DNA of 64,000 nt, from assembly GCF_022012435.1 (NCBI RefSeq), contig NZ_JAKLUA010000001.1, positions 1,488,001-1,552,000 of the forward strand, in the 5' to 3' direction. Positions 15,581 to 32,871 of this stretch are shown here, piece by piece. This DNA comes from Bradyrhizobium zhengyangense. Its GTDB lineage: Bacteria; Pseudomonadota; Alphaproteobacteria; Rhizobiales; Xanthobacteraceae. The translations under genes were made by a program, and so were the position numbers. The notes below the pieces were generated by a model, which was not told where the DNA came from, did no database searches, and worked only from the letters and a program-made list of their open reading frames with translations. How positions within the stretch are numbered: position 1 is the first letter of the stretch; every line of letters starts with the position of its first letter.

Positions 15581-18418
15581 GTGTCAGACAACAACCAGGA
15601 CTCGGCCATTTCTTTTGGGCCATTTCGTCTATTTCCAAGGTCGCGACTCCTGGAAAAGGACGGCGCGCATCTTCATGTCGGCGGCCGCGCGCTCGACATC
15701 TTGATCTTCCTGGCCGAGCGGCCCGGCGAAGTCGTCGACAAGCGCGAGCTCGTCAAGCGTGTCTGGGCAGACGTGAATGTCGACGATGGCAGCCTCCGCT
15801 TCCACATCGCAGCCTTGCGCAAGGCACTCGGCGACACCGGCAAGTCGGCCCGCTATGTCGTCAACGTCCCCGGGCGCGGCTATTGCTTCGTCGCATCTCT
15901 CACCCAGGTTGCTCCCGCCCCTCCTGCTCGCCCGACTGATATCCCTCTACCGCGTTTCCTTCCCGCCCCGCTCGCGCGCGTGATCGGGCGAGACGACGTC
16001 ATCGAGAAGATTTCGACCGGGCTCGCGATGCATCGTTTCGTGACAGTGGTCGGCCCCGGTGGCATCGGCAAGACCGCAGTGGCCGTGACCGTCGGCCATC
16101 GCCGGCTTGCCCATTTCGACGGGCATGTGTTCTTCGTCGACTTCGGACCGGTGCGGAAGCCTGAACTCGCAGCAATCACCATCGCATCGACGCTCGGGCT
16201 ATCCATCAATGCGGAGGATCCGGTCCCGGCGCTGCTGACGCACCTGCAGACGAAACCGACGCTGCTGATCTTCGACAGCTGCGAGCACGTGCTGGAGACG
16301 CTCGCGCCGCTGGTCGAGCGCCTGGTTCGCGAAGCACCGCGACTGCATGTGCTGGCAACCAGCCGGGAATCCTTTCGCAGCGAAGGCGAACGGATCTTTC
16401 GGCTGTTCCCGCTGGATTGTCCGCCCCGGCGCGACGACCTCGCCGTGGCCGACGTCCTTGCCTATCCGGCGGCCCAGCTCTTCGTCGAACGTATCGCGCA
16501 GAGCTCCGGACCATTTCAGCTGAGCGCAGAAGAAGCACCGCTGGTGGCTGACATCTGCCGCCGCCTCGACGGCATCGCGCTTGCGATCGAGCTCGCAGCA
16601 GGGCGCGTCAACGCCTATGGCATCGCCGGCACGGCATCCCTGCTCGACAGCCGCTTTTCGCTGCAATGGCGCGGGCGGCGCACGGCCATCCCGCGACATC
16701 AGACGCTCGGCGCCGCGCTCGACTGGAGCTACGACCTGCTTCCCGCATCCGAGAGCGCCATTTTGCGGAGACTTTCCGTGTTCGCCGGGCCGTTCACGCC
16801 GGAGGCGGCTGCTGCCGTCGCCTCGGGCGACGGGCTCAGCGCCGCCGCGACCATGGAGGCGATCGACAATCTCGTCACAAAGTCGCTGATCGCACCATCA
16901 GGTGCGCGAACATTGCGCTATCGCCTGCTGGACACCACGCGCACTTATGCGCTCGGCAAGCTGAGCGAAGCCAATGAAGCGAAGCGGATCGCACAGCGGC
17001 ATGCCGAATATTTTCACGGCCTGTTCGAACGCGCTGAAGCCGAAACCTCCTCCCCATTGTCGGACTGGCTTGGCGCCTACGGCGCCGAATTGGACAATTT
17101 GCGCGCTGCGCTGGACTGGGCCTTTTCGCCTGAAGGCGATGCACGGCTTGGTATCGCCCTGACGGCGGTGGCCGTGACGCTCTGGATTCGGCTTTCGTTG
17201 TTCGCAGAGTGTCGCGAGCGCGCCAGGACCGCGCTTGCCGCGCTGGCAGACCATGACGAGGAGCGCGTACGCATGCAGCTCCTGGCAGCGCTCGGCTGGT
17301 CGCTGATGTATGGCGAAGGCCGGGCACGCGAGGCCCGCCCGATCCTCGAGTCCACGCTCGAATTGGCCGAGAAGCTCGACGACAAGGATTTCCGGTTACG
17401 GGCTCTCTGGGGCTTGTGCATCGATCAGTTCAACAACGGGGCGTTTGGCAAGGCGCGCGCGCTCGCCGATCGTTTCACCGAAGCCGCCGCGAATTCGTCC
17501 GACAAGACTGATCTCATGCTGGCGGACCGGTTGATGGCCGTCGCACTGCATTATCTCGGAGACCAGAGCGAGGCACGGGTCCGTATCGACCGGGTCAATG
17601 CCTCGCTGCATGTATTGGCCGAGAAGCCCAAGATCTTCCCGCTCGATCTGCGGATATCGACGCAATACTTTCGCGCCCGCATCCTGTGGCTGCAGGGTCA
17701 TGCCGATCAGGCTTTGGCGTTGGCCGAACAGAATATCCACGAAGGTCGGGCCAACGGCCATGCGCTGACCTTCTGCAGCGTGCTGGGACAGGCCGCCTGC
17801 CCGATTGCCTTCCTGGCTGGCGACTACGACGCCGCCGAGCGCTACGGGACCGAATTGCTGGAGCATGCTGATCGCCACGCCATCCGACTCTGGGGGCTAT
17901 GGGCCCGCGCGTTCAACGCGCTGGTCGCTGCAAAGCGCACAGACGTCGAGACCGGCTTGCCGCTGTTGCGAGACGAGCTCAATCGCGCCGGCGATGCCCG
18001 CTTCCTGCCGCGCTTCCTTCCCCTGCTTGGCGAGCTAGCCGCCTGCTTCGGACAAGCCAATCAGGTTCATCATGGCTTCGACACGATCGAGAACGTGTTG
18101 GCGCGCTGCAACGACAGGCAGGAGCGTTGGTATCTGCCGGAGCTACTCCGCATCAAGGGTGAGCTGTTGCTGAGGGAGTCACCGCAATCGGAAGCCGCCG
18201 ACGCCTGCTTTCACGAAGCCATGGATCTAGCAACACAGCAAGGCGCGCATTTCTGGCAGCTGCGCTGCGCGATCAGCATTGCGCAGCTCAGGATCGGACA
18301 AGGCCAGCGCGCTGAGGCACGCGCGGTTCTGGAGAGGGCATGCAATGCGATGACCGAAGGATCCGGGATCGCGGATATGCGGTTCGCGCGCGACCTGATT
18401 GCGGACCTGCAAACATGA
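15581..18418 (+). CDS. Winged-helix / NTPase / TPR-like transcriptional regulator, 945 aa (paralog 1)
   Basis: Large regulator with three parts. Residues 10-105 are an OmpR/PhoB-type winged helix (SFGPFRLFPRSRLLEKDG, ELVKRVWADVNVDDGSLRFH, RYVVNVPGRGYCF). Residues 130-400 are a STAND/NB-ARC-like ATPase with Walker A GPGGIGKT (158-165), Walker B LLIFDSCEHV, the sensor-like LATSRESFRSEGERIF and RRLDGIALAIELAAGRV. Residues about 450-945 are helical repeats of TPR type. There is no receiver domain, so signal sensing probably occurs in the repeats. The start is GTG at 15581; an ATG at 15574 is out of frame. A paralog of identical length lies at 28016-30853. Target genes are unknown. Confidence 0.88.
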   Translation: MSDNNQDSAISFGPFRLFPRSRLLEKDGAHLHVGGRALDILIFLAERPGEVVDKRELVKRVWADVNVDDGSLRFHIAALRKALGDTGKSARYVVNVPGRGYCFVASLTQVAPAPPARPTDIPLPRFLPAPLARVIGRDDVIEKISTGLAMHRFVTVVGPGGIGKTAVAVTVGHRRLAHFDGHVFFVDFGPVRKPELAAITIASTLGLSINAEDPVPALLTHLQTKPTLLIFDSCEHVLETLAPLVERLVREAPRLHVLATSRESFRSEGERIFRLFPLDCPPRRDDLAVADVLAYPAAQLFVERIAQSSGPFQLSAEEAPLVADICRRLDGIALAIELAAGRVNAYGIAGTASLLDSRFSLQWRGRRTAIPRHQTLGAALDWSYDLLPASESAILRRLSVFAGPFTPEAAAAVASGDGLSAAATMEAIDNLVTKSLIAPSGARTLRYRLLDTTRTYALGKLSEANEAKRIAQRHAEYFHGLFERAEAETSSPLSDWLGAYGAELDNLRAALDWAFSPEGDARLGIALTAVAVTLWIRLSLFAECRERARTALAALADHDEERVRMQLLAALGWSLMYGEGRAREARPILESTLELAEKLDDKDFRLRALWGLCIDQFNNGAFGKARALADRFTEAAANSSDKTDLMLADRLMAVALHYLGDQSEARVRIDRVNASLHVLAEKPKIFPLDLRISTQYFRARILWLQGHADQALALAEQNIHEGRANGHALTFCSVLGQAACPIAFLAGDYDAAERYGTELLEHADRHAIRLWGLWARAFNALVAAKRTDVETGLPLLRDELNRAGDARFLPRFLPLLGELAACFGQANQVHHGFDTIENVLARCNDRQERWYLPELLRIKGELLLRESPQSEAADACFHEAMDLATQQGAHFWQLRCAISIAQLRIGQGQRAEARAVLERACNAMTEGSGIADMRFARDLIADLQT

Positions 18419-19440: not shown

Positions 19441-19533
19441 GCTGATACTCCTTTGCTTGTCCCCGACTCCCGCACCTGCGCGGGACGAAATGATTGAAGT
19501 TGAAGATGAGATGCGACTTTCTGTCTCGCGCCC

Positions 19534-22172: not shown

Positions 22173-22195
22173 AGAAGTTGTCCTTATCTCATTTA

Positions 22196-22278
22196 ATAAC
22201 GTTCGTTACAAATATTGTACCTCCATATGGTGATCAAGATGGCCCGCCATTGATTTTTATAACGATCCATACAAATAT
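22196..22278. promoter_or_regulatory. Twin operator in the emrA-like / tetR-like divergent region
   Basis: Two direct copies of a 20-base element, at 22196-22215 and 22259-22278, agree at 17 of 20 positions (pattern ATAACG-TC-TACAAATAT). The first contains the perfect palindrome TAACGTTCGTTA (22197-22208); in the second the palindrome is imperfect. They lie 63 bases apart in the 140-base divergent intergenic region, the first next to the efflux operon and the second 35 bases before the tetR-like ATG. This is the expected layout for TetR repression of the pump plus autorepression. Confidence 0.65.
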
Positions 22279-22312
22279 ACGTGTAGACCGTCGCAACCAG
22301 GATCATGCTGAC

Positions 22313-22972
22313 ATGGCACGGAAGAAGAACGACACGAGCCCGTCGCGCCGCGGACGCCCCCCCGCCTACGACGCAGAAACGGCCCTCAAACGGGCCACGG
22401 AAGCGTTCTGGAGGACCGGCTATTCCGGCACATCTCTCGACAAGGTCGCCGCCGTGACCGGCATGAGCCCGCCGAGCCTCTATGCGGTGTTCGGTAACAA
22501 GCACGCGCTCTATCTTGAGGCGCTCGCGCACTATTGGGAGACGAGCCTGGCCGCCACGCGCGAGGCCCTCGCAGGGGACCATCCCTTGGACGAAGCCTTG
22601 ATGCTGGCCTATGAGGCAGCGCTCTCGATCTATTTTTCCGGCAGGGGAACCACGCGCGGCTGCTTCGTGGTCGGAACCGCCGTAACCGAAGTCGCGGAAG
22701 ATGCGGAGATCCGCAACAGCGTCTCGGCCGGACTGCGCGCAATCGATGCCGATTTCGAAGCTCGCTTCCGCCGCGCGCGGGACGAGGGCGAGCTGAAACC
22801 GGACGTCGACCCTGCCGCACTCGCAATCCTTGCTGCTGCCACGATGCAGACGATTGCCATTCGCGCGCGTGCTGGCACCCGCCGCGCCGAACTGCGAGAA
22901 CTCGCCCGGAAGGCCGTCGACGCGATCTGCGGATGCCGGCCGGAGGCGCGCCAAGACGCGACGCCCGCCTGA
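22313..22972 (+). CDS. TetR/AcrR family transcriptional regulator
   Basis: 219 residues. N-terminal DNA-binding domain: RRGRPPAYDAETALKRATEAFW, then the helix-turn-helix TSLDKVAAVTGMSPPSLYAVFGNKHALY (about 43-70). The C-terminal ligand domain resembles the TetR_C class with a cysteine in TTRGCFVVGTAV. ATG at 22313 fits the conserved RxGRP start; the frame is open further upstream but that sequence covers the operator. Probable repressor of the divergent EmrAB-type pump, released by the pump substrate. Confidence 0.9.
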   Translation: MARKKNDTSPSRRGRPPAYDAETALKRATEAFWRTGYSGTSLDKVAAVTGMSPPSLYAVFGNKHALYLEALAHYWETSLAATREALAGDHPLDEALMLAYEAALSIYFSGRGTTRGCFVVGTAVTEVAEDAEIRNSVSAGLRAIDADFEARFRRARDEGELKPDVDPAALAILAAATMQTIAIRARAGTRRAELRELARKAVDAICGCRPEARQDATPA

Positions 22973-23130
22973 GATCAAGCCCTTTACCGGCCGAGCCGGT
23001 TGGCAACCAACGCTGCTGGCAATGCGGCGAGGATGGCTTGCGCATTTCCGCCCGCCTTCTCGTTAGAGTTTAGCGACCGTTCTCAAATCAAGCACCAGCG
23101 CGATTCGGTTCGAGTTCGCACCGCCGCCCC

Positions 23131-23424
23131 TCACTCCAGTCCTTCGATGATCCGGACATCCCGCTCGCAGGCATTGCCGAGCGTCTTCAGCGCCTCCTGA
23201 TAGGCAGGGCTGTCGTGTGCCGCCACCGCGAGTTCGAGGCTGTCAAACTCGGTCACCGTGGTGCGCTGGGCGATGCCCTGCTCATAGACCTTCGCAGCAA
23301 CGCCGCGGGCGAGGAAGCGACCACCGTGGGCAATAATCGCGGGCCCCGCGAGCTTCGCGTAGGCCGCCAGCGCCTCTGGATCGGAAATCGAACGATAGAG
23401 GGTGATCCAGTAGCCCTTGGCCAT
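23131..23424 (-). CDS. DUF1330 family protein
   Basis: 97-residue ferredoxin-fold (dimeric alpha-beta barrel) protein of the DUF1330 family: KGYWITLYRSISDPEALAAYAKLAGPAI, then GGRFLARG, and SPAYQEALKTLGNACERDVRIIEG at the end. Function is unknown for the family; fold relatives include small monooxygenases and cyclases. ATG at 23424 follows GGAGG, 2 bases after the msrA stop, so both are probably cotranscribed in an oxidative-stress group. Confidence 0.85.
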   Translation of the reverse strand: MAKGYWITLYRSISDPEALAAYAKLAGPAIIAHGGRFLARGVAAKVYEQGIAQRTTVTEFDSLELAVAAHDSPAYQEALKTLGNACERDVRIIEGLE

Positions 23425-23426
23425 CG

Positions 23427-23942
23427 CTAGCCTCCGGCGACGGCCGCGCGCCGCGGCAGTTTCCAGTTCGGCCGAATGAAGTGACACGTGTAGCCCTCAG
23501 GGTAACGCTCGAGATAGTCCTGATGCTCGGGCTCGGCTTCCCAGAATTCGCCGGCTGGAGCAACTTCGGTCACTACCTTGCCGGGCCACAGGCCAGACGC
23601 TTCGACATCTGCGATGGTATCTTCCGCCGCACGCTTCTGCTCATCTGACGTGTAGAAAATCGCTGAGCGGTAGCTGGTCCCCAAATCATTGCCCTGGCGA
23701 TTGAGCGTCGTCGGATCGTGAATCTGGAAGAAGAACTCCAGCATGGTCCGGAAGGTGGTCTTCGCAGGATCGAAGATGATCTCGATCGCTTCGGCATGGC
23801 CATCGTGGTTACGATAGGTGGCGTTCTTCACCCGTCCGCCGGTGTAGCCTACGCGCGTGGAGATCACGCCCGACTGCTTGCGGATGAGATCCTGCATGCC
23901 CCAGAAGCAACCTCCCGCCAAAACCGCGCGCTCTGTCGTCAT
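23427..23942 (-). CDS. msrA: Peptide-methionine (S)-S-oxide reductase MsrA
   Basis: 171-residue MsrA that repairs methionine-S-sulfoxide. The catalytic cysteine is C12 in the invariant GGCFWGMQD motif, followed by [12 protein letters not shown] and the [11 protein letters not shown] segment. Downstream [26 protein letters not shown] is the substrate-binding region. Length is normal for the cytosolic enzyme. GGGAGC precedes the ATG. First gene of a pair with the DUF1330 gene. Confidence 0.95.
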
Positions 23943-24030
23943 TTGTCAGCTCCCGTCATGCTAGGGACGTCCTTCCGGTTTCAGCCTCTTGGCGAAGGAC
24001 CGGATGGCCAATCTATTCGAAGCGGTCCGA

Positions 24031-24453
24031 CTAGACCAGCTTGGCGTCGAGGCTGATTTCGGCATTGAGAACCTTGGAAACCGGACAGTTCTTCTCGGCC
24101 TCGCCGGCAATGTGGGCGAAGCCGGCATCGTCGAGATTAGGCACCTTGGCGCGCAGCGTGAGAGCGGACTTGCTGATCTTGAATCCCTTGCCTTCCGGTT
24201 CGAGCGAGACTGCGGCCTCGGTCGACAGCTCCGTCGGCGTGAACCCGGCGAGCTGGAGGCCGAACGCCAGGGCCATGGTGAAGCAGCCGGCATGTGCGGC
24301 CGCGATCAATTCCTCGGGATTGGTGCCCTTCTCAGTCTCGAAACGGGTCTTGAACGAATAAGGGGTCGCGGCGAGCACGCCGGATTCGCTCGACAGATGA
24401 CCAGTGCCATCGCGGCCCGTGCCCTGCCAAACTGCCTTTGCCTTGCGGATCAT
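24031..24453 (-). CDS. OsmC family peroxiredoxin
   Basis: 140-residue OsmC/Ohr-fold thiol peroxidase that reduces organic hydroperoxides. Two redox cysteines are in place: C57 in ELIAAAHAGCFTMAL and C123 in EKNCPVSKVL. The sequence is closer to OsmC than to Ohr (NPEELIAAAHAGC). ATG at 24453 has AAGGAG just upstream. Neighbours msrA and DUF1330 share the strand and support an oxidative-stress role. Confidence 0.92.
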   Translation of the reverse strand: MIRKAKAVWQGTGRDGTGHLSSESGVLAATPYSFKTRFETEKGTNPEELIAAAHAGCFTMALAFGLQLAGFTPTELSTEAAVSLEPEGKGFKISKSALTLRAKVPNLDDAGFAHIAGEAEKNCPVSKVLNAEISLDAKLV

Positions 24454-24583
24454 CTCACTTCTCCTTGTTGGGGGCGGATCGACCAGCGGCGCTCCGCACC
24501 GGTGGAAGGGCGGCGCCGCTGGCATTGCGTGGGACACTTCAGGATTTGCACCGCCGAAGTGTCTTTTGAAGGGCGGGACACGC

Positions 24584-24619
24584 CTTGCCGGCCTGCCTCA
24601 ACTTGCCGGCCTGCCTCAA
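24584..24619. repeat. 18-bp perfect tandem duplication at the epoxide hydrolase stop codon
   Basis: CTTGCCGGCCTGCCTCAA occurs twice in a row (24584-24601 and 24602-24619). The second copy contains the stop codon of the epoxide hydrolase gene (24616-24618), so the duplication adds only 3' untranslated sequence. Probably a replication-slippage duplication. Confidence 0.8.
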
Positions 24620-25929
24620 ATCGACTGGCGCAACGAGCGGAACGCGGTGCGCACCTCCGCGCAGAACAGCACGGGCTGTTCCCATGCCGCGAAGTGGCCG
24701 CCCTTGTCGAGCCGGTTGTAATGGATCAGCTTGGGATAGGCTTTTTCGGCCCAGCTGCGCGGCGCGGCATAGATCTCGTCGGGGAAAACGCTGACAGCGA
24801 CCGGAATCTTCACGTGCTTGGGCGCGAAGAACGCCAGCTTGTTCTCCCAGTACAGACGCGCCGAAGACACCGCCGTGTTGGTCAGCCAGTAGAGCGTGAT
24901 GTTATCGATGACATCATCGCGCGACAATCCTTCGGACTTGCCGTCGAAGGCTCGTGTAATCATCGCTGTGCTGCGGGCGTCGTGGTCGAGCATCCAGGAC
25001 GCCAGACCTGCCGGCGAATCCACGAGGCCATAGAGCGTCTGCGGCCGGTTCGACATTTCGATCGCATAGCCGAGGCCATGTTTGTAGAAATCGTCGAGCT
25101 GATCGTAGGCAAGGTTCTCGTCGGCCATGAGGCCCGACGGCTTTGCCCCACCGGGCTGGAGTGCCTCGGCGATCTCGTCCGGAACGGTCGCGGGCATATT
25201 GGTGTGGATGCCGAGCAACTGCGGAGGCGCCAGCAGCGCCATTTGCTCCGTGATCGCGTTACCCCAATCGCCGCCCTGGGCGACGTACCTGCTGTAGCCG
25301 AGCCGCTCCATGAGCACGACCCAGGCCCTTGCAACACGCTGCGGATCCCAGCCAAGGGCCGCGGGCTTGCCGGAGAAGCCGTATCCCGGGAGCGACGGGA
25401 TCACGAGGTGAAACGCATCTGCGGCTGCTGCGCCATGCGCGGTCGGATCGGTCAGCGGACCGACGATCTTCATCTGCTCGATGACCGAGCCGGGCCAGCC
25501 ATGCGTGACGATCATCGGGAGCGCGCTGTCATGCTTCGAACGCACGTGGATGAAGTGAATGTCGACGCCGTCAATCTCGGTGACGAATTGCGGGAGCGCA
25601 TTCAGGCGGGCCTCCATCTTGCGCCAGTCGTAGTCTGTCTGCCAGTGGCGAACGAGCTGCTGGACGGTCGACAGCTGCACGCCCTGCGACTGATCGGCGA
25701 CAATCTCGCGATCCGGCCACCGCGTCGCGGCGAGACGGCGGCGCAGGTCGAGTAGATCCTCCTCAGGCACGCTGACGTGGAACGGGCGGATTGCATCGCT
25801 CGCGGCGGCCTTGACCGAACCCGCCGGAAACAGGCTCGCCGTGCCTGCAGCAACAGCCATCATCGCGGCCTGACCCAGCAATTGGCGGCGGTCCGGGTTG
25901 ATGATGTCGACTCGTGTCTGCGTTGTCAT
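24616..25929 (-). CDS. Epoxide hydrolase family protein, exported
   Basis: 437-residue alpha/beta hydrolase with an N-terminal EHN domain (from about residue 46: AIRPFHVSVPEEDLLDLRRR). The oxyanion-hole motif is HGWPG (143-147), the nucleophile D221 in GGDWG, and a further conserved block is PSLPGYGFSGKP. Residues 1-42 look like an export signal (DRRQLLGQAAMMAVAAGTAS), possibly TAT-like although only RR is present. Expected to open epoxides in the periplasm. ATG at 25929 follows GGGAGA. The upstream region carries three CTAAC-type repeats at 10-base intervals. Confidence 0.88.
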   Translation of the reverse strand: MTTQTRVDIINPDRRQLLGQAAMMAVAAGTASLFPAGSVKAAASDAIRPFHVSVPEEDLLDLRRRLAATRWPDREIVADQSQGVQLSTVQQLVRHWQTDYDWRKMEARLNALPQFVTEIDGVDIHFIHVRSKHDSALPMIVTHGWPGSVIEQMKIVGPLTDPTAHGAAAADAFHLVIPSLPGYGFSGKPAALGWDPQRVARAWVVLMERLGYSRYVAQGGDWGNAITEQMALLAPPQLLGIHTNMPATVPDEIAEALQPGGAKPSGLMADENLAYDQLDDFYKHGLGYAIEMSNRPQTLYGLVDSPAGLASWMLDHDARSTAMITRAFDGKSEGLSRDDVIDNITLYWLTNTAVSSARLYWENKLAFFAPKHVKIPVAVSVFPDEIYAAPRSWAEKAYPKLIHYNRLDKGGHFAAWEQPVLFCAEVRTAFRSLRQSI

Positions 25930-26029
25930 TACGCATCTCCCTGGTTCTGGTCCGTGACGTTGACCGAAACTCGAAATCGAGATCGGCTCGTCCTTGATCT
26001 AGATTGGCTCAGAGACAGTCCATTGGCTC

Positions 26030-26054
26030 GTTATGGATTGTTAGGGCGCGTTAG
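26030..26054 (-). promoter_or_regulatory. CTAAC decamer repeats (site E), upstream of epoxide hydrolase
   Basis: On the minus strand: CTAAC (26054-26050), 5 bases, CTAAC (26044-26040), 5 bases, ATAAC (26034-26030). The repeats are exactly 10 bases apart and end 100 bases before the ATG at 25929. A -10-like TCTAGAT lies about 27 bases downstream. Same pattern as four other sites in this region. Confidence 0.6.
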
Positions 26055-26187
26055 CCTTTGCGAGTTGTCGCGACGCAAGCTCGAAAGGTGAAGCATGATC
26101 ATCACAAGATGCGCCGTGCAAACGCATTACGGCGCGAGATCGGCTATCGCGCGCCGTGAATGCCGACCTATCGGCTAAGGTCGTAAG

Positions 26188-26877
26188 TCAGGTCGGCAGC
26201 GGCTGACCGGCTTGCTCGCGCACGATGTAATCGGCGTACCAGACCGGCCAGTTCTCGTCGTGTCCGCCAGTCAGCTTCTCGTGTTCGCCATGCGCCGCTG
26301 CCGCGCGCCGCAGCGCGCCTGCAAGTTCGCTTGACGAGGTGAACGTGGTGTCCGTGGCCTCGATCCGACCCGGCAGCCGCGTCGTGATCTCCTGAAACAG
26401 CCAGCCGTTGCCATCTGGATCTCTGAAGGAGGCAAACGAGCTGTAGCTGCCGCGTTTTGGATCAGCACCGTTGAGCCTGATACTGCCGAACAGGTATGGC
26501 TCGTCCGTGCCGGCGTGAACATCGCCGCCACCGTGAAAGGGTTCGCTGATCTTGACGCCACGCGCGAGCAGATCCTGTCGTGCGGCTTCGAGGTCGGAGA
26601 CGATCAGATACAGGCCTTGCGCCGAGCCGGGCTCCGCTGACGTGACGTTCTTGCCGAAGATCACCGAACAGGCTGAGCCCGGCGGTGTGAACTGAATGAC
26701 GCGCCAGCCGTCGGCAGAGGCGAAATCCGCATCCAGCCTCCAGCCAAGACTGGCATAAAATGCCTTGGCGCGATCCACATCCGACACGGGGATCACGACG
26801 ACCTCGAGCTTGAGGTCGACGGCACGCGATTTCGCCGGGTTGGCGGCGGCTGTGTGATTCATCCCGGCGATGGTCAT
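26188..26877 (-). CDS. VOC family protein (glyoxalase/bleomycin-resistance fold)
   Basis: 229 residues; the first half (about 22-145) is a vicinal-oxygen-chelate domain: LKLEVVVIPVSDVDRAKAFYASLGWRLDADF, then WRVIQFTPPGSACSVIFG, and RDPDGNGWLFQEITTRLPG. The remaining 80 residues are helical (SSELAGALRRAAAAHGEHEK) and end in WYADYIVREQAGQPLPT, found in a subset of VOC proteins. Enzymatic activity is unknown; metal ligands are not all obvious. GGGAG precedes the ATG at 26877. Upstream lies site D of the CTAAC repeats. Confidence 0.85.
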   Translation of the reverse strand: MTIAGMNHTAAANPAKSRAVDLKLEVVVIPVSDVDRAKAFYASLGWRLDADFASADGWRVIQFTPPGSACSVIFGKNVTSAEPGSAQGLYLIVSDLEAARQDLLARGVKISEPFHGGGDVHAGTDEPYLFGSIRLNGADPKRGSYSSFASFRDPDGNGWLFQEITTRLPGRIEATDTTFTSSSELAGALRRAAAAHGEHEKLTGGHDENWPVWYADYIVREQAGQPLPT

Positions 26878-26963
26878 GTCGCACTCCCTGATTTGAGATA
26901 CGGGCTCGGCACCGAGACCGTTTGTGACACCACGAGTTTTGCGCGAACGATGAAATAGTGCTC

Positions 26964-26988
26964 GCTATCGGTTGTTATGCTTCGTTAG
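26964..26988 (-). promoter_or_regulatory. CTAAC decamer repeats (site D), upstream of the VOC gene
   Basis: On the minus strand: CTAAC (26988-26984), 5 bases, ATAAC (26978-26974), 5 bases, ATAGC (26968-26964). 10-base period, ending 86 bases before the ATG at 26877. Located in the 129-base gap between the histidine kinase stop and the VOC gene. Confidence 0.55.
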
Positions 26989-27006
26989 CGAATGTGCGCC
27001 ACTTCC

Positions 27007-27681
27007 TCACGCAGCAGCGAGCGGCATGGCGATGGTGACACGTGTGCCGCCCCGCCCGGCTTCGCCATGCATCCGGGCACAGATGCTGCGCGCCAAGCCC
27101 TCGAGGATCCGGCTGCCGGCCCCTTGAAGCGGTCCGGTCGCGCCGACGCCATTGTCGGCCACTGCGCAAAGCCAGCTGCCCTCGCGGTTCACAACCTCGA
27201 TGCGGATCAGCGCGCCGTTCTTGCATGGAAAGGCATGCTTTGCCGCATTCGTAATCAGTTCCGTCAACATCAGCGCGAGCCGGTGGCACTGCCAGGCCGG
27301 CAGCGCCCCGTTTTCGACCGATGCTTCGCAGCGGATGCCGGCCGGTTCCAGCACCGCTTCGGAAAGCGCACCACAGAGCTTTTCGAAGAAGGCTCCGACG
27401 GAGATCTCCGAGAGGTCGTCATTGTCGGACAAGAGCTGATAGAGCCTGCCGAAGGCGACAATCCGCCGCTCCAGCCGCTCCACCGCAACCGACATGTCCC
27501 GGCCTCCGGCCCGCGTGAAGTCGTGACGGACTGACGCGCCCAGCAGCGTCAGCGTGTTTTTCATACGATGGTGAGACTCACGCAGGACGAGTTCCCAGTC
27601 GCGCGAGACGTCGTCCAGATTGGCGACATAATGTGATCGAACGCCCCTGTCGTTCGGCCGAGCGCTGATATCGGGCATCAT
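27007..27681 (-). CDS. Sensor histidine kinase, HWE/HisKA_2 type
   Basis: About 224 residues, no membrane segment and no PAS or GAF domain, so it is a minimal cytosolic kinase. H-box ELVLRESHHRMKNTLTLLGA with the phospho-acceptor histidine at 37 or 38; N-box LMLTELITNAAKHAF; G-box VADNGVGATG; C-terminal GRGGTRVTIAMPL. ATG at 27681 is favoured because GGGGGAAG lies just before it; the in-frame ATG at 27693 is upstream of that site. No response regulator gene is adjacent. Upstream region has site C of the CTAAC repeats, placing it in the proposed regulon. HWE kinases often act in general stress response or light signalling. Confidence 0.88.
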   Translation of the reverse strand: MMPDISARPNDRGVRSHYVANLDDVSRDWELVLRESHHRMKNTLTLLGASVRHDFTRAGGRDMSVAVERLERRIVAFGRLYQLLSDNDDLSEISVGAFFEKLCGALSEAVLEPAGIRCEASVENGALPAWQCHRLALMLTELITNAAKHAFPCKNGALIRIEVVNREGSWLCAVADNGVGATGPLQGAGSRILEGLARSICARMHGEAGRGGTRVTIAMPLAAA

Positions 27682-27693
27682 AGCTTCCCCCAT

Positions 27694-28015
27694 TGAAATT
27701 GGGCCTAACTCGAAGCCTATACTGATGCAGACCCGCCGCTCACGCTCGTTAGACGTTGCAAGATTGTGTTATGATTGCATGGCGCGTGATATCTTCGGGC
27801 CATGGCACAAGCTTCAGCCTGAAGCACTCTGATATTTCCCGCTTCCCGCATAAGCCGTTCGCGTTTAAACAAAATTCGCGGCGTTTCATCCCAACGCTTT
27901 CGACCCGGTCCTATGCCTGTTGCTCGATTTCGCCGCTTTCGGCCGGTTTACTCTCGGTAACGTTCTGGTAGATCAAACAGACAGCAGCTCTTTCCTTTCG
28001 CTGGAACCATGGCGC
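27694..28015. other. Divergent intergenic region, histidine kinase / second large regulator
   Basis: About 320 bases between the kinase gene and the GTG start of the paralogous regulator. It holds the CTAAC-type repeats at 27748-27772 with a -10-like TATAGG (minus strand, 27721-27716) 26 bases beyond the last CTAAC. The part near the regulator shows no second set of repeats and no gene; a 71-codon open frame at 27756-27971 overlaps the repeats and looks accidental. Confidence 0.5.
27748..27772 (-). promoter_or_regulatory. CTAAC decamer repeats (site C), upstream of the histidine kinase
   Basis: On the minus strand: ATAAC (27772-27768), CTTGC (27762-27758), CTAAC (27752-27748), with 5-base spacers, so a 10-base period; a weaker TGAGC follows at 27742-27738. 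The CTTGCAAC-CTAAC segment is also found in site B. Ends about 66 bases before the kinase ATG. Confidence 0.55.
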
Positions 28016-30853
28016 GTGCCGGACACTAACGACCAGGACTCAGCCATTTCCTTCGGGGCCTTCCGGCTGTTTCCGCGGTCCAGGCTGCTCGAAAAGGATG
28101 GCGTGCCGCTGCATCTCGGCGGCCGCGCGCTCGACATTCTGATCTTTCTCGCCGAGCGTGCCGGCGAGGTCGTCGACAAGCGGGAATTGGTCAAGCGGGT
28201 CTGGGCCGATGTGAATGTCGATGAGGGCAGCCTGCGATTTCACATCACGTCGCTTCGCAAGGCGCTGGGCGATGCCGGCGAAGGCTCCCGCTATGTGGTC
28301 AACGTGCCTGGCCGGGGCTATTGTTTCACGGCGCCGCTGCTCCGCGCGGCACCTGCAGAGATCAGGACCGGCGCGGTTGTTTCCGCACTTCGCTCCCTGC
28401 CCGCCCCGCTTGCGAAGATGATCGGCCGCGACGACGCGGTCGAGAAGATCGGAGCCGAACTTTCCCTGCATCGGTTCGTCACCATCGTCGGCCCCGGCGG
28501 CATCGGCAAGACCTCCGTCGCGCTCGCCGTGGCGCATGGCCAGTATGCGGCCTTCGACGGCCAGGTCTGCTTCGTCGATTTTGGCGCGCTGACGGACCCT
28601 CAGCTCGTCCCTGGCACGATCGCCGCAGCCCTTGGCCTGACCGTCAGTTCCGACGACCCGCTACCGGGGCTGCTGCAGTCGCTGAGCAGCCGCCCGATGC
28701 TGCTGGTGTTCGACAGCTGCGAGCATATCATCGACGAGCTCGCCCCCCTGGCAGAGCGCATCGTGCGGGAAGCCCCTGAGCTGCATATTCTCACCACCAG
28801 TCGGGAATCCTTCCGCACCGAAGGCGAACGGGTATACCGGCTGTTTCCGCTGGATTGTCCGCCGCAACGCGACGGACTGAGCGTGGCCGACGTCCTTGCC
28901 TATCCGGCCAGCCAGCTTTTCGTCGAGCGGATCGCCGAGAGCCTCAGCGAATTCGAACTCAGCGAGGAGGATGCGCCTCTCGTCGCCGATATCTGCCGGC
29001 GCCTGGACGGCATTGCGCTCGCGATCGAGCTTGCCGCCGGGCGAGTCAATGCCTACGGCATCGCCGGCACGGCATCGCTGCTCGACAGCCGTTTCTCGCT
29101 GCTTTGGCGGGGACGTCGCACCGCTATACCCCGGCACCAGACGCTGAGCGCGGCGCTGAGCTGGAGCTACGATCTTCTCCCCGTGGCGGAGAGCGCGACC
29201 TTGCGCGGATTGTCGATCTTCGTCGGACCATTCACGCTGGAAGCTGCACTCGCGGTCGCCGCAAGTCAGAGCATCGACGAAGCCGAGGCGGTCGAAGCGA
29301 TCACTAATCTGCTCTCGAAATCTCTCATTGCGACCTCGCCTGCGGAACGTCGGCTGAGATACCGCCTGCTCGATACGACTCGCGCATTTGTCGGCGACAA
29401 GCTCGTCGAGAGCGGAGAATCGGCCCGCGTCGCGCGCGCCCACGCCGAATATTTCCGCGATTTCCTGCACAACATCTCGGCGAAATCGACGGGCATGCAG
29501 AGCGCGGGCGGTTTCCTGCCCTATGCCGATCATCTGCCCAATGTGCGCGCCGCGCTAACGTGGAGCTTCTCGGAAAGTGGCGACCGCACGGTCGGCGTGG
29601 ACCTGGCCGCGTCAGCCGCGCAGTTCTTCCTCGAGCTGACCTTGCTGACGGAATGCCATAGCTGGACCCAGCAGGCGCTTGCATCTGCGGATACCATCGA
29701 CCGCCGCAAGGAAATGGCCTTGCAGGCGGCCCACGGCGTGTCCGTGATGTTCACCCAGGGCAATGCGGAAGGGGTCCGCTCCGCATTCACGCGCAGCCTG
29801 CAACTGGCCGAGGAACTCGACGATCTGCACTGGCAGCTCTGGCTGTTGCGCGGGCTGCATATCTATCTCACCCGGGTCGGCGATTTTCACGGTGCGCTCG
29901 GCACCGGCGAACAAGGCCAGGCCGTCGCCAGGAAGCTGAACGACCCGACCAGCACGCTGAACGTCGAGTGGATGCTGGGGGTGGCCCATCATCTGATCGG
30001 CAACCAGGACAAGGCTGTTCAGTTCTGCGAGAGCGCGATGGTGGACAATCCGGGCTCACAGCGGCTGAATATCGGCCATCTTGGCTATGACGACCGCATT
30101 GTCGCGCTGGTGGCTCTGGCGCGAGGGCTCTGGCTCAGCGGCCGGCCCGATCGCGCCATCGAGGCGGCGCGCTACACCGTGAGGGAAGCCGAGCAGCTCG
30201 AGCAACCGCTGACGCTCGGCATTTCCCTGATCTGGACCATCTACGTGTTTCTGTGGGTCGGTGACTGGACCAGCGCCGAGAGCCTGATCGAGCGGCTGAT
30301 CGATCACGCCGCGCGGCATTTTCTCGGCCCCTATCACGCGGTCGGTATCGGCCAGAAGGGCGAGCTTCTGCTCCGCCGCGGGGATATCGCCGGAGGCATC
30401 GAGCATCTTCGCCGCAGCCAGGCGACCTTGTACGCCACGCGGCACCGGATCATGACGACGGTGTTCGCAACGGCGCTCGCGGAGGGGCTTGCGGCCCAGA
30501 ACCAGGCTGATGAGGCGTTGCGCACGATCGATGAGGCCATCGCCCAGATCGGCGATCACGGCGAATCCTTCGACATGCCGGAAATGCTCCGGGTCAAGGC
30601 GGACATTCTGGTGCAATCCGCCCGGGCGACGGAAGCCGAAGCCTGGCTCCAGCAATCGCTCGCCTTGTCGCGCCGGCAATGCGCGCGCGGCTGGGAGCTG
30701 CGGGGGGCGATGAGCCTCGCTCGCGTCTGGCTGCAGGCCGGTCGAAAGAGCGACGCCCAGGCCCTGCTGGCGCCGATCGTCGCGCACTATCAGGAAGGCC
30801 TGTCGAGCCGCGACCTGGTCGCCGCCAAAGGGCTGCTGAGCACCCTGAATTAG
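28016..30853 (+). CDS. Winged-helix / NTPase / TPR-like transcriptional regulator, 945 aa (paralog 2)
   Basis: Paralog of the regulator at 15581-18418 with the same architecture and, from the GTG start, exactly the same length. Winged helix at about 10-105 (SFGAFRLFPRSRLLEKDG, KRVWADVNVDEGSLRFH), NTPase at 130-400 with GPGGIGKT and LLVFDSCEH, then TPR-like helices. The N-terminal 450 residues are highly similar between paralogs; the C-terminal sensor halves diverge strongly. The sequence ATGGCGCGTG directly around the start is shared by both genes, and in this copy the ATG frame hits a stop after six codons, confirming GTG at 28016. Prime candidate for binding the CTAAC repeats around it. Confidence 0.88.
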   Translation: MPDTNDQDSAISFGAFRLFPRSRLLEKDGVPLHLGGRALDILIFLAERAGEVVDKRELVKRVWADVNVDEGSLRFHITSLRKALGDAGEGSRYVVNVPGRGYCFTAPLLRAAPAEIRTGAVVSALRSLPAPLAKMIGRDDAVEKIGAELSLHRFVTIVGPGGIGKTSVALAVAHGQYAAFDGQVCFVDFGALTDPQLVPGTIAAALGLTVSSDDPLPGLLQSLSSRPMLLVFDSCEHIIDELAPLAERIVREAPELHILTTSRESFRTEGERVYRLFPLDCPPQRDGLSVADVLAYPASQLFVERIAESLSEFELSEEDAPLVADICRRLDGIALAIELAAGRVNAYGIAGTASLLDSRFSLLWRGRRTAIPRHQTLSAALSWSYDLLPVAESATLRGLSIFVGPFTLEAALAVAASQSIDEAEAVEAITNLLSKSLIATSPAERRLRYRLLDTTRAFVGDKLVESGESARVARAHAEYFRDFLHNISAKSTGMQSAGGFLPYADHLPNVRAALTWSFSESGDRTVGVDLAASAAQFFLELTLLTECHSWTQQALASADTIDRRKEMALQAAHGVSVMFTQGNAEGVRSAFTRSLQLAEELDDLHWQLWLLRGLHIYLTRVGDFHGALGTGEQGQAVARKLNDPTSTLNVEWMLGVAHHLIGNQDKAVQFCESAMVDNPGSQRLNIGHLGYDDRIVALVALARGLWLSGRPDRAIEAARYTVREAEQLEQPLTLGISLIWTIYVFLWVGDWTSAESLIERLIDHAARHFLGPYHAVGIGQKGELLLRRGDIAGGIEHLRRSQATLYATRHRIMTTVFATALAEGLAAQNQADEALRTIDEAIAQIGDHGESFDMPEMLRVKADILVQSARATEAEAWLQQSLALSRRQCARGWELRGAMSLARVWLQAGRKSDAQALLAPIVAHYQEGLSSRDLVAAKGLLSTLN

Positions 30854-30887
30854 AAGCGTCTTCAACGGGATACCGCAAAATCACGTT

Positions 30888-30912
30888 CTTGCAACTCCTA
30901 ACAACTTCTAAC
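30888..30912 (+). promoter_or_regulatory. CTAAC decamer repeats (site B), upstream of the 235-aa gene
   Basis: CTTGC (30888-30892), CTAAC (30898-30902) and CTAAC (30908-30912), spaced exactly 10 bases, ending 60 bases before the ATG at 30972 in the 118-base gap after the large regulator. Confidence 0.55.
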
Positions 30913-30971
30913 ACGCCAAGCCGCCCGCGCCCCGCCATGGTGACGACAATTCATGGTGGATGCAGTGAGAC

Positions 30972-31679
30972 ATGGCACTTCTTGATGATGCGATCGACGC
31001 CTGCGGGGGACTGGCCCGCTGGGACAGCTTGAGCCGGTTCACTCTGCATCTGTCGGTCGGCGGTAGCCTGTTTTCCGACGCCGGACATGCCCGCGAATTC
31101 AAGGATGTGACCGCGGAAGGATCGACGCGCACACAATCGGTCCGTTTCACTGGAATCACCGGCGGCGAGCAGTCCGGCGCCTTTCAGGCGGACGCGATCA
31201 CGATCGAGAGCCTGGATGGCCAGGTGCTGCGAACCTGGCGAAACCCAAGCCTTGACTTCCCGACCAACGGCACGCATGCGCTGGCGGACGAACTGCATCT
31301 GGTGTTCTTCTGCGGCGTCCAGATCTGGACCTATCTCACGACACCATTCCTCCTCGCCCGTCCTGACGTCGTGGTGGAGGAGCTGCCGCCCTGGCAGGAG
31401 AACAGCGAGACGTGGCGATGCCTTCGCGCGCAATTCCCGTCGAGCCTCATCAACCTTGCGTCCGAGCAAATCTTCTATTTCGACGAGAACGCCTTGCAGC
31501 GACGAGCCGACCACGATCTCCTGGGCGCGCGTGTCGCGCACTATTCGTGGGCCCACGAGAATTTCTGCGGCATCGTGGTGCCAACCCTCCGACGCACATT
31601 GACGCGACAGCCTGACGCGGCCGTGATTGCCAAACCCGTGCTGATCGACGTCGAGATCTTCGATGCCGTCTTCGAGTGA
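30972..31679 (+). CDS. Conserved-looking hypothetical protein, 235 aa
   Basis: 235 residues without signal peptide or membrane helix. Beta-rich in the first two thirds (WDSLSRFTLHLSVGGSLF, TQSVRFTGITGGEQSG, AITIESLDGQVLRTWRNP), then HLVFFCGVQIWTYLTTPFLLARPDVVVEELPPW and a C-terminal section EQIFYFDENALQRRADHDLL. The pattern of alternating beta strands recalls LolA-like or lipid-binding antiparallel sheets, but I cannot assign a family. It follows the second large regulator by 118 bases on the same strand and has its own repeat site B, so it is a likely direct target. Function unknown. Confidence 0.7.
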   Translation: MALLDDAIDACGGLARWDSLSRFTLHLSVGGSLFSDAGHAREFKDVTAEGSTRTQSVRFTGITGGEQSGAFQADAITIESLDGQVLRTWRNPSLDFPTNGTHALADELHLVFFCGVQIWTYLTTPFLLARPDVVVEELPPWQENSETWRCLRAQFPSSLINLASEQIFYFDENALQRRADHDLLGARVAHYSWAHENFCGIVVPTLRRTLTRQPDAAVIAKPVLIDVEIFDAVFE

Positions 31680-31756
31680 CCGATAAGTCCCTGACATATT
31701 GGCTTAAGTTGAGGTCGCTGCGACTGGCCGCGGCATCCGATCCACCCCCACATAAT

Positions 31757-31781
31757 CTAACAGATCCTAATCACCCCTAAC
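31757..31781 (+). promoter_or_regulatory. CTAAC decamer repeats (site A), upstream of the AraC gene
   Basis: CTAAC (31757-31761), CTAAT (31767-31771), CTAAC (31777-31781): three repeats at a 10-base period, ending 97 bases before the ATG at 31879. A -10-like TATCCT at 31805-31810 lies 24 bases downstream, so the repeats overlap or abut the -35 position, typical of an activator site. Confidence 0.6.
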
Positions 31782-31878
31782 GGGCGTCCGAGCCTGCCCA
31801 GGCCTATCCTGTGAGCATGCCGAGGATGCGTCTCCACCGATCCTCGCGAACGATCGCGCAGCTCAGAAGGAACAGGCA

Positions 31879-32871
31879 ATGCTGACCGAATTGCAGAGGG
31901 CCCACGCCCGGATCAATCTTCCGGCCGGTCGGGGGAATCACGAAGCGCCCCGCGCCGCCAAGGCGATCACCCGGGAAAACGAGTGGCGTCAGATCGCTTG
32001 CAGCGCGCAGACCGAGCTAGACGACATCACGATTTCGCGGTGGGAGAATTCCCGCGAGACCTCCTGGCATTCAGCGACGACGCCGTCCGATCGCTATTTT
32101 GTCGGCATTGCGCTGAAGACGACGCGGGCCACCTTGACCAGGGGCCGCCGGATCATCTTCGACGGCACCATGCCGTCAGGCACGCTATTTGTCAGCGCGC
32201 CGTCGCGGCAACTGAGCGCACAATTCCAGTCGCCTTGCGCCTTCCTGCACCTCCACATCTCCGCCGAGCAATTCCCGACGCGGTGGTCCGTAGCCGCAGC
32301 CGAAGGTCTCGACGACCTCATTCTGCTGCGCGATCCACTCGCTGCGGGACTGGCCAGAGCGCTCGCCGAGCAAGGCGACGCTGCCGGACATCAATTCGCG
32401 CATTGCATTGGCCAGATTCTGGCGATGCATCTGGCCCGGCCCGAATTGCCGCGCGCCAAGGTCAATGCCTTGCCAAAATGGCGCCTGCGGCGCGTCGAAC
32501 AACACATCGCCGCTCATTTCGAACGCGGCATCAGCCTGTCCGAGCTCGCCGGCGTCGCGGGCCTTTCCAGGATGCATTTCGCCGCGCAGTTCCGTGCAGC
32601 GACCGGATATCGTCCGCGTGAATATCTGCTCAATCATCGCATCGAACAGGCGAAGTCGCTGTTGACGACGACCGAGAGACCGTTGGCGGAGATCGCTCTG
32701 GCAGTCGGCTTCAGCACGCAGGCGCACTTTTCGACCGTCTTCAAGCGCGTCAGCGGCGAGACCCCGGCGCGCTGGCGTGCGGCCAGCAAGAACCACCGGC
32801 CTGACGTTGAAGCGATGCCACGACGACGCCCGTCATGGGATCAGGACCACATCGTGAGCACGGCTGCATGA
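31879..32871 (+). CDS. AraC family transcriptional regulator
   Basis: 330 residues. The C-terminal 100 residues are a classic double helix-turn-helix: VEQHIAAHFERGISLSELAGVAGLSRMHFAAQFRAATG, then AKSLLTTTERPLAEIALAVGFSTQAHFSTVFKRVSGETP. The N-terminal 200 residues are a divergent sensor domain with a jelly-roll-like stretch (RRIIFDGTMPSGTLFVSAPS). AAGGAA precedes the ATG. Promoter carries site A; an AraC protein with its two recognition helices one turn apart could itself bind 10-base-spaced repeats, so autoregulation is possible. Followed by an intrinsic terminator at 32958. Confidence 0.92.
   Translation: MLTELQRAHARINLPAGRGNHEAPRAAKAITRENEWRQIACSAQTELDDITISRWENSRETSWHSATTPSDRYFVGIALKTTRATLTRGRRIIFDGTMPSGTLFVSAPSRQLSAQFQSPCAFLHLHISAEQFPTRWSVAAAEGLDDLILLRDPLAAGLARALAEQGDAAGHQFAHCIGQILAMHLARPELPRAKVNALPKWRLRRVEQHIAAHFERGISLSELAGVAGLSRMHFAAQFRAATGYRPREYLLNHRIEQAKSLLTTTERPLAEIALAVGFSTQAHFSTVFKRVSGETPARWRAASKNHRPDVEAMPRRRPSWDQDHIVSTAA

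Follow-up and report, generated by a model that had tools for sequence, protein, structure and literature searches.

The 64,000-nucleotide stretch of Bradyrhizobium zhengyangense DNA considered here (contig NZ_JAKLUA010000001.1, positions 1,488,001 to 1,552,000 of the forward strand; hereafter the window, always at its full length) carries a gene cluster in which five promoters possess arrays of three direct repeats close to CTAAC, each array being 25 bp long with pentamers at a period of exactly 10 bp. The arrays stand before the genes for an epoxide hydrolase, a VOC protein, a histidine kinase, a 235-residue protein and an AraC-type regulator, and the same cluster encodes a large protein, here called regulator A, with an N-terminal OmpR-type winged helix-turn-helix (wHTH) domain, a STAND NTPase and a TPR sensor. 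A related protein, regulator B, is encoded further upstream in the window. Comparison among genomes makes it likely that the arrays are operators of such regulators, and the features on which this reading is built are the following (aa, amino acids).

15581..18418, plus strand: regulator B, a chimera whose wHTH and NTPase part (residues 1 to about 400) is of A type and whose TPR sensor belongs to a different clade; proposed as a further binder of the same arrays
24616..25929, minus strand: epoxide hydrolase gene (EHN and alpha/beta hydrolase, 437 aa)
26001..26006, minus strand: -10-like hexamer CAATCT, 23 bp past the last repeat of array 1, kept in orthologs
26030..26054, minus strand: array 1, CTAACgcgccCTAACaatccATAAC with GAGC cap, before the epoxide hydrolase gene
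26188..26877, minus strand: VOC/glyoxalase-superfamily gene (229 aa)
26935..26940, minus strand: -10-like hexamer AAAACT of the VOC promoter
26964..26988, minus strand: array 2 of the VOC gene, CTAACgaagcATAACaaccgATAGC with GAGC cap; conserved less than any other array
27007..27693, minus strand: HisKA_2/HWE-type histidine kinase gene (228 aa)
27719..27724, minus strand: -10-like hexamer CAGTAT of the histidine kinase promoter
27748..27772, minus strand: array 3, ATAACacaatCTTGCaacgtCTAAC with GAGC cap, before the histidine kinase gene
28016..30853, plus strand: regulator A, with an OmpR-type wHTH at its N-terminus and with STAND NTPase and TPR sensor; proposed to bind the arrays and to activate
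30888..30912, plus strand: array 4, CTTGCaactcCTAACaacttCTAAC with ACGC cap, before the 235-aa gene
30936..30941, plus strand: -10-like hexamer CATGGT of the 235-aa gene promoter
30972..31679, plus strand: gene for the 235-aa protein (no Pfam or NCBIfam match at E<=0.001)
31757..31781, plus strand: array 5, CTAACagatcCTAATcacccCTAAC with GGGC cap, before the AraC-type gene
31805..31810, plus strand: -10-like hexamer TATCCT of the AraC-type gene promoter
31879..32871, plus strand: AraC-type regulator gene, considered to be controlled through the arrays and not to encode their binder

For regulator A the GTG start was chosen to correspond with the start of regulator B; the open frame reaches back to 27920, and the queries began two codons upstream of the chosen start, at 28010.

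All five arrays, which a first-pass annotation of the window had described and had interpreted as a probable local regulon, were recovered at their coordinates and on their strands. A search for three CTAAC copies at period 10 with at most four mismatches in total gave 9 overlapping matches in the 64 kb, all within the five arrays, compared with 0-5 matches at 15 other periods between 6 and 21, the value of 5 belonging to the harmonic period 20. At most three mismatches being allowed, 8 matches were counted in the window, whereas 100 simulated second-order-Markov windows averaged 0.08 and never exceeded 2. A weight matrix trained on related loci, with the five arrays of the window among its training sites, assigns these arrays scores of 31-38 and detects no sixth array in the window down to a score of 6. 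The same scan bears out the statement that no array lies upstream of the other genes of the region, including those for MsrA, OsmC, TetR, HlyD, an MFS protein and an aldo/keto reductase. The distance from array end to start codon, given earlier as 60-100 bases, measures 54-100, and the epoxide hydrolase array is extended 10 bp further upstream by a weak fourth repeat, CTCGC (26064-26060). On the scale of the 8.8-Mb genome, a 29-base pattern with at most three mismatches occurs in 6 places, 4 of them in the window cluster, and its reversed control in none. The bare two-repeat pattern with one mismatch was discarded as a search tool; it has 40 genome matches (C10:97393 and C34:330449 among them) versus 499 for the reversed control, and most single pairs are probably noise.

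Conservation was followed by querying genome contigs with the regulator, which gave 130 stretches, the best 80 of these 130 yielding 72 loci (L007-L078), all titled Bradyrhizobium except L009. Within these loci, 231 matches with no more than two mismatches fall at period 10 and 60 at the harmonic 20, while each remaining period between 6 and 24 has 0-1 and the reversed consensus 1. An array scoring at least 20 is present in 71 of the 72 loci, the exception, L078, being a 5.4-kb contig. With up to three mismatches, the 72 loci, the window and L001 hold 285 arrays, which stand before the 235-aa gene in 69 loci, the kinase gene in 57, the AraC gene in 55, the epoxide hydrolase gene in 46, the VOC gene in 20 (a figure that includes several kinase or other arrays assigned to the VOC frame by automatic gene choice) and a DJ-1 gene in 13. 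Retention of the arrays upstream of orthologs, a check proposed with the initial description, is hence an observed property of these loci. In the histidine kinase, epoxide hydrolase, AraC and DJ-1 promoters the mean pairwise identity between orthologs reaches 0.94-1.0 for the pentamers, 0.87-0.90 for the cap, 0.81-0.91 for the hexamer and 0.57-0.68 for the 19 bases before the hexamer, with only 0.29-0.43 for the DNA 11-60 bases upstream; the sites were chosen for their array match, which favours pentamers and cap, not the hexamer. The 235-aa promoter is more conserved throughout (upstream DNA 0.61, pentamers 0.85-0.98), and the VOC promoter less so (pentamers 0.75-0.90). Related neighbourhoods have arrays also before genes absent from the window cluster, namely those for DJ-1/PfpI, an alpha/beta hydrolase, a membrane-fusion protein and a nitrilase. 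As a side observation, the contig of L009 is titled 'Frankia sp. RB7'; the locus is of Bradyrhizobium type with a 92% identical regulator and is probably mislabelled or contaminated.

Beyond the orthologous cluster, at least three more arrays are found elsewhere in the same genome, at C1:1269426 (MOSC/ferredoxin-reductase gene), C2:83544 (molybdopterin oxidoreductase gene) and C23:285814 (alpha/beta-hydrolase gene). The MOSC array recurs before the same gene in G187 and G153 and the oxidoreductase array in G064. Of the proposed local regulon the regulon part stands, while a purely local one is rejected on account of these arrays in other parts of the genome. A triple-pattern match at C23:151120 (L006) was set aside as likely chance. 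To survey more distant relatives, 40 regions were fetched, the genome of the window included, nearly all around regulator homologs of 32-50% identity; the exceptions are L156, an orthologous cluster, and L173, chosen for an already known array. At no more than two mismatches these regions hold 15 period-10 matches versus 0-1 at other periods. Matrix matches scoring at least 12 number 44 in the 40 regions (775 kb) versus 1 in 20 random control regions (400 kb), which were hand-picked from the same genomes, some sharing a contig with the regulator and three of these on short contigs. Without L156 and L173, 31 arrays scoring at least 10 occur in 21 of 38 loci, with 1 in the 20 controls, and 18 scoring at least 20 occur in 12 of 38 loci, with none in the controls. 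The comparison with random DNA, which had been suggested as a check and was run in part, therefore finds almost no arrays in random DNA of related genomes, the genome of the window being sampled through pattern counts only; as far as they were run, neither this check nor that on orthologs contradicts the observation. Outside the family, three of 12 loci are to be mentioned: L207 with four arrays of 28-40, L208 with one of 34 and a weak one, and L212 with a single array of 19.9; five control regions hold no array scoring at least 12. Arrays with the same spacing to the -10-like hexamer are likewise present around some diverged regulator relatives in other genera and families.

Recurrent targets, some named by eye and the rest by domain scan, are genes for epoxide hydrolases, VOC proteins, OsmC, FMN reductase, short-chain dehydrogenases, alpha/beta hydrolases, membrane-fusion proteins and relatives of the 235-aa and AraC proteins. 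The 235-aa family, itself without a Pfam match, recurs as an array target beside these regulators, one homolog recognised by eye lying at L152:11394-12107. Furthermore, a sub-type of array with CTCAC half-sites (for example CTCACaacttCTCACaagtcCAAAC GGGT) stands before OsmC genes beside a diverged regulator in L144-L147, L149 and L150, and the array before the alpha/beta hydrolase at C23:285814 is of this CTCAC type.

The layout of these promoters is strikingly uniform, consisting of three half-sites of about CT[AC]AC-AA spaced exactly 10 bp from one another, then a G[AG]GC-like cap (GAGC three times and GGGC once in the window, with ACGC before the 235-aa gene) and a -10-like hexamer. Boxes of the latter kind had been placed 24-27 bases beyond the last repeat in three cases; the hexamer in fact starts exactly at +24 in all five promoters and has the form nAnnnT in 5/5 (CAATCT, AAAACT, CAGTAT, CATGGT, TATCCT). 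The orthologous promoters and the DJ-1 promoter likewise have A at +25 and T at +29 in their consensus, and on counting by eye so do the distant MOSC (CAGATT) and molybdopterin oxidoreductase (AAACGT) promoters; the distant alpha/beta-hydrolase promoter reads TAGGCA at +24. Equally, among held-out arrays scoring at least 20 and made non-redundant by a 62% identity filter (24 reduced to 21), A occupies +25 in 19/21 and T occupies +24 in 16/21, both positions lying outside the matrix. For these held-out arrays, as for the listing of 39 paralog loci, L156 was excluded and L173 kept, the latter being left out solely from the counts over 38 loci. If the hexamer is a -10 element with a 17-bp spacer, the -35 hexamer would fall at +1 to +6, that is on the cap, which is unlike TTGACA, and the array would span about -60 to -36. 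The layout would then resemble a class II activator site, because the cap occupies the place of the -35 element.

Regulator A matches PF00486 (Trans_reg_C) with 59.1 bits over residues 33-106 against a gathering score of 26.2, and regulator B likewise with 59.1 bits; A further matches TPR_12 with 46.6 bits, and the Pfam model nSTAND_NTPase5 stays below its gathering score (24.8 of 34). Throughout 26 aligned proteins GxGGIGKT and LxxDSCEH are invariant, and the invariant residues include the P-loop and most of the helix expected by homology to be the recognition helix. In the AlphaFold model of A, which has a mean predicted local distance difference test (pLDDT) score of 77, the TPR part forms a helical superhelix and the winged helix is weak (about 35-60). 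The top Foldseek match is PH0952 (6mfv; E 9e-12, TM-score only 0.25-0.33), followed by APAF1 with a low TM-score, and the closest solved sequences to the wHTH are the DNA-binding domains of CadC, ToxR and PhoB-type regulators. Since no BTA domain was matched in A or B and no LuxR-type helix-turn-helix was matched, both at E<=0.001, and no receiver domain was matched beside the wHTH, which sits N-terminally, the regulator is grouped neither with the SARPs and LALs nor with the response regulators. Three full-length wHTH-STAND-TPR proteins are encoded in the genome of the window, and up to 14 matches in another Bradyrhizobium genome.

Regulator B has the same DNA-binding module, a point that the first-pass annotation had missed, and is an equally plausible binder. 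It is 82-84% identical to A over the wHTH and falls into the A clade over residues 1-400 (support 99), with identity dropping to 39% at residues 501-600 and to 24-27% beyond. Its residues 501-900 are instead 53-69% identical to a clade formed by L155_5636, L161_11534, L159_8966 and L054_18158, with which they group at support 100, the wHTH of these sensor-clade relatives being only 35-39% identical to that of B; the trees comparing the two parts comprised regulators covering at least 850 query positions. As judged from these trees, B is a chimera in which an A-type wHTH and NTPase output is joined to a TPR sensor of another clade. Six genomes (L230-L235) possess B without A and have arrays before the 235-aa gene (6/6), the AraC gene (5/6) and others; they were picked for strict arrays, and so speak for compatibility, not for frequency. 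On the other hand, L155, L159, L160 and L161, which have the B-type sensor clade with another wHTH, show no array (the L159 and L160 regulators being identical). Because arrays are present in the former and absent from the latter, they follow the wHTH and NTPase module instead of the sensor, and a single set of operators probably receives the output of two sensors. The other wHTH of L155, L159, L160 and L161 reads ESALRVHIAAIRK and may use another operator.

The distribution of regulator and arrays among genomes points in the same direction. The strict pattern is present in 7 of 198 family genomes, five of which are exactly those with a regulator of at least 84% identity, G075 and G114 having homologs of 45-47%; strict arrays occur in 7/34 family genomes with a homolog at E<=1e-100 and in 0/164 without. 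Among 146 Bradyrhizobium genomes, regulator A (E<=1e-275) is found in 54 and the strict pattern in 66: 50 genomes have both, 4 the regulator alone, 16 the pattern alone and 76 neither, with a Fisher p of 5e-20 that is overstated by treating related genomes as independent. Of the 16, 14 have a STAND homolog at E<=1e-40 (a weak partial match in G574), including six with regulator B. Regulator A is accompanied by no AraC homolog at E<=1e-80 in six genomes, and strict arrays are kept in 6/6. When regulators covering at least 600 query positions are arranged in a tree that omits the DNA-binding domain, array presence requires 10 changes versus 28.5 when shuffled, with 0/500 shuffles as low, a clustering aided by same-locus paralogs sharing a label. 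As far as such comparisons reach, the arrays track the wHTH/STAND/TPR type of regulator better than the AraC protein. Of the two binders proposed initially, the protein at 28016 emerges as the best candidate on comparative evidence and the AraC protein at 31879 as the less likely one on presence and absence.

A number of observations weigh against regulators A and B as binders and activators, in addition to the overstated p value and the selection of the B-without-A genomes. The simple triple pattern is not enriched in the whole genome, with 6 matches (4 in the window cluster) versus 8 for the reversed control, and the single control match, in L200, scores 17.3. No array scoring at least 20 is found in 26/38 paralog loci, and the strict pattern is absent from 27/34 family genomes with a homolog at E<=1e-100 and from 4/54 genomes with regulator A (G521, G556, G564 and G623, with 65-66% orthologs); as many homologs lack nearby or strict arrays, some members of the family must rely on different sites or locations. 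Conversely, the strict pattern is present in 16/92 genus genomes lacking A, and G501 and G612 have it with no STAND homolog at E<=1e-40. The regulator adjoins most arrays, such that co-inheritance of one cluster inflates co-occurrence, and AraC homologs are themselves associated with strict arrays (48 of the 146 genomes with both, 11 with the homolog alone, 18 with the arrays alone, 69 with neither; p 2e-13). The T at +29 is not general, being present in 5/24 held-out arrays, the class II position is a prediction from sequence, and that the targets have a theme in common is no more than an impression. Support for binding and activation is altogether comparative.

How these observations distribute over other explanations can be considered for the AraC protein, which might bind the arrays through its two helix-turn-helix motifs and activate the cluster including its own gene. 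OmpR/PhoB-type winged helices and the twin helix-turn-helix motifs of AraC proteins both bind direct repeats one helical turn apart, the AraC gene lies within the cluster with an array at its own promoter, and its homologs co-occur with arrays in 48/59 genomes. Yet where an AraC homolog (E<=1e-80) occurs in the absence of regulator A, which is the case in 11 genomes, strict arrays are lacking in 7 and the remaining 4 each have another STAND relative; among the 7, G105 shows a weaker array upstream of its AraC gene, with a STAND homolog next to it (L151). The six genomes with A and no AraC homolog, whose handles were matched to loci by equal regulator coordinates, divide evenly: L031, L050 and L054 keep an AraC-like DNA-binding half, and the loci of the other three genomes, L049, L052 and L062/L073, carry arrays in fetched DNA that yields no AraC match at E<=1e-5. 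Rejection of the AraC protein is less firm because such halves remain in 3/6 loci, the match in G064 equally being just that half; arrays occur, however, around diverged STAND regulators in two other families as well (AraC relatives were not sought there). The case against AraC as binder is a fair, if not a final, one, and its role as binder appears improbable. As an observation beside this question, the AraC match is confined to the C-terminal helix-turn-helix part at L230:6231-6605, L231:6090-6506, L234:13375-13794, L031:14038-14457 and L050:19004-19429, where the N-terminal sensor is diverged, replaced or missing and an array is still nearby.

Even less probable is a widespread OmpR-family response regulator such as CtrA. 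In its favour are the TAAC within the half-site and the binding of OmpR-type domains to direct repeats spaced by roughly one turn, but the CtrA site is TTAA-N7-TTAA with an 11-bp step, and the arrays keep a step of 10 bp, with no matches for periods 9 and 11 at no more than two mismatches. CtrA-type regulators are, to our knowledge, nearly universal in the group, while strict arrays are absent from 76/92 Bradyrhizobium genomes without A and from 191/198 family genomes. That regulator A alone uses the arrays, B having different operators of its own, is unlikely, though of the rivals it deserves most attention: of 71 A loci, 33 lack a B ortholog (at least 60% identity) within the fetched DNA, and arrays occur in every one of these 33, against which stand the 82-84% identity of the two wHTH domains and the arrays before the same genes in the six genomes with B and without A. 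Repeats of no regulatory function, arising by chance, from codon usage or as selfish elements, would agree with the lack of enrichment of the simplest genome-wide pattern; such an origin is scarcely credible in view of the strict period, the fixed distance to the -10-like hexamer, the orientation with the genes, conservation above that of the flanks and rarity in control DNA.

The arrays are accordingly best regarded as likely operators, as predicted from sequence comparison, of OmpR-type winged-helix/STAND/TPR activators, namely of A and very probably also of its chimeric paralog B. Most likely an inducer would bind the TPR sensor, upon which the STAND NTPase might turn to an oligomerising form as in MalT; three wHTH domains could then fill the half-sites in head-to-tail order along a single face of the DNA, covering about -60 to -31 provided that the hexamer is the -10 element, and, thus lined up, recruit RNA polymerase to a promoter without a good -35 element. 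With a common DNA-binding and NTPase module and different sensors, A and B probably pass two signals to the same operators. A broader proposal, possible though decidedly tentative, is that this alphaproteobacterial STAND family swaps TPR sensors by recombination while keeping one wHTH and NTPase module with its three-site operator, and that A and B pool signals on one detoxification regulon, perhaps as mixed STAND assemblies.

The targets seem to be mostly concerned with detoxification and stress, comprising epoxide and alpha/beta hydrolases, glyoxalase-like proteins, OsmC, DJ-1, FMN reductase and efflux adaptors. The epoxide hydrolase bll3418 of B. japonicum, possibly but not necessarily an ortholog of the array-bearing gene, is reported as induced by H2O2 in two studies (PMC3420878). 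Between the two regulators, the region 18502-24537 encodes, by Pfam, an aldo/keto reductase, MFS and HlyD efflux proteins, TetR, MsrA and OsmC, a likewise stress- or detoxification-like set that is free of arrays.

Large wHTH-STAND-TPR proteins are present in several copies in many Bradyrhizobium genomes, and a defined operator in a constant promoter geometry makes this family accessible to testing, with targets readable from sequence. The pair of A and B lends itself to studying whether sensors are exchanged and signals pooled among STAND activators, and a recurrent detoxification gene set becomes tied to one regulatory code. Direct-repeat operators of OmpR-type domains are already known from PhoB, AfsR and PimR. 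In the open-access literature, searched at the level of titles and abstract starts of the papers listed, no description of the array element and no operator or regulon for proteobacterial wHTH-STAND-TPR proteins was found.

Among known systems, the PhoB/OmpR family, CadC and ToxR share the DNA-binding domain family PF00486 with A. PhoB-type response regulators possess a receiver, whereas none was matched in A; CadC and ToxR have a membrane-bound layout in place of NTPase and TPR, and the PhoB box differs from the array in half-site and spacing. The operators of MalT and PH0952 differ from the arrays as well. In architecture MalT and PH0952 resemble A as STAND NTPases with a TPR sensor, MalT multimerising on its inducer, but the DNA-binding domain of MalT is C-terminal and that of PH0952 ArsR-like, in contrast to the N-terminal OmpR-type domain of A (PMC6468293). 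Closer in composition is AfsR, a large SARP of Streptomyces, which has an N-terminal OmpR-type domain, an NTPase (NOD) and TPR like A, and which binds head-to-tail direct repeats near a poor -35 element and activates transcription, the arrays being similar in layout (PMC10936776). Unlike A and B, in which none was found at E<=0.001, AfsR has a BTA domain after the wHTH; its box consists of 11-bp repeats centred at -29.5, compared with 10-bp repeats that would centre near -40 to -45 here, and SARPs in general use an 11- or 22-bp step with the 3' repeat 8 bp from the -10 element, compared with a 10-bp step and 23 bp (PMC10936776). PimR, a SARP-LAL, shares with the arrays three direct repeats about one helical turn apart, to which it binds cooperatively, and a main operator clear of the -35 element; it differs in its CGGCAAG heptamers with 4-bp spacers and an 11-bp step, only the secondary operator having 10-bp units, and in its single target gene, its occurrence in Actinobacteria and its role in antibiotic regulation (PMC5930380). 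By analogy, AfsR and PimR would be the nearest counterparts of the regulator in mode of action, the step, the half-site and the position in the promoter being different.

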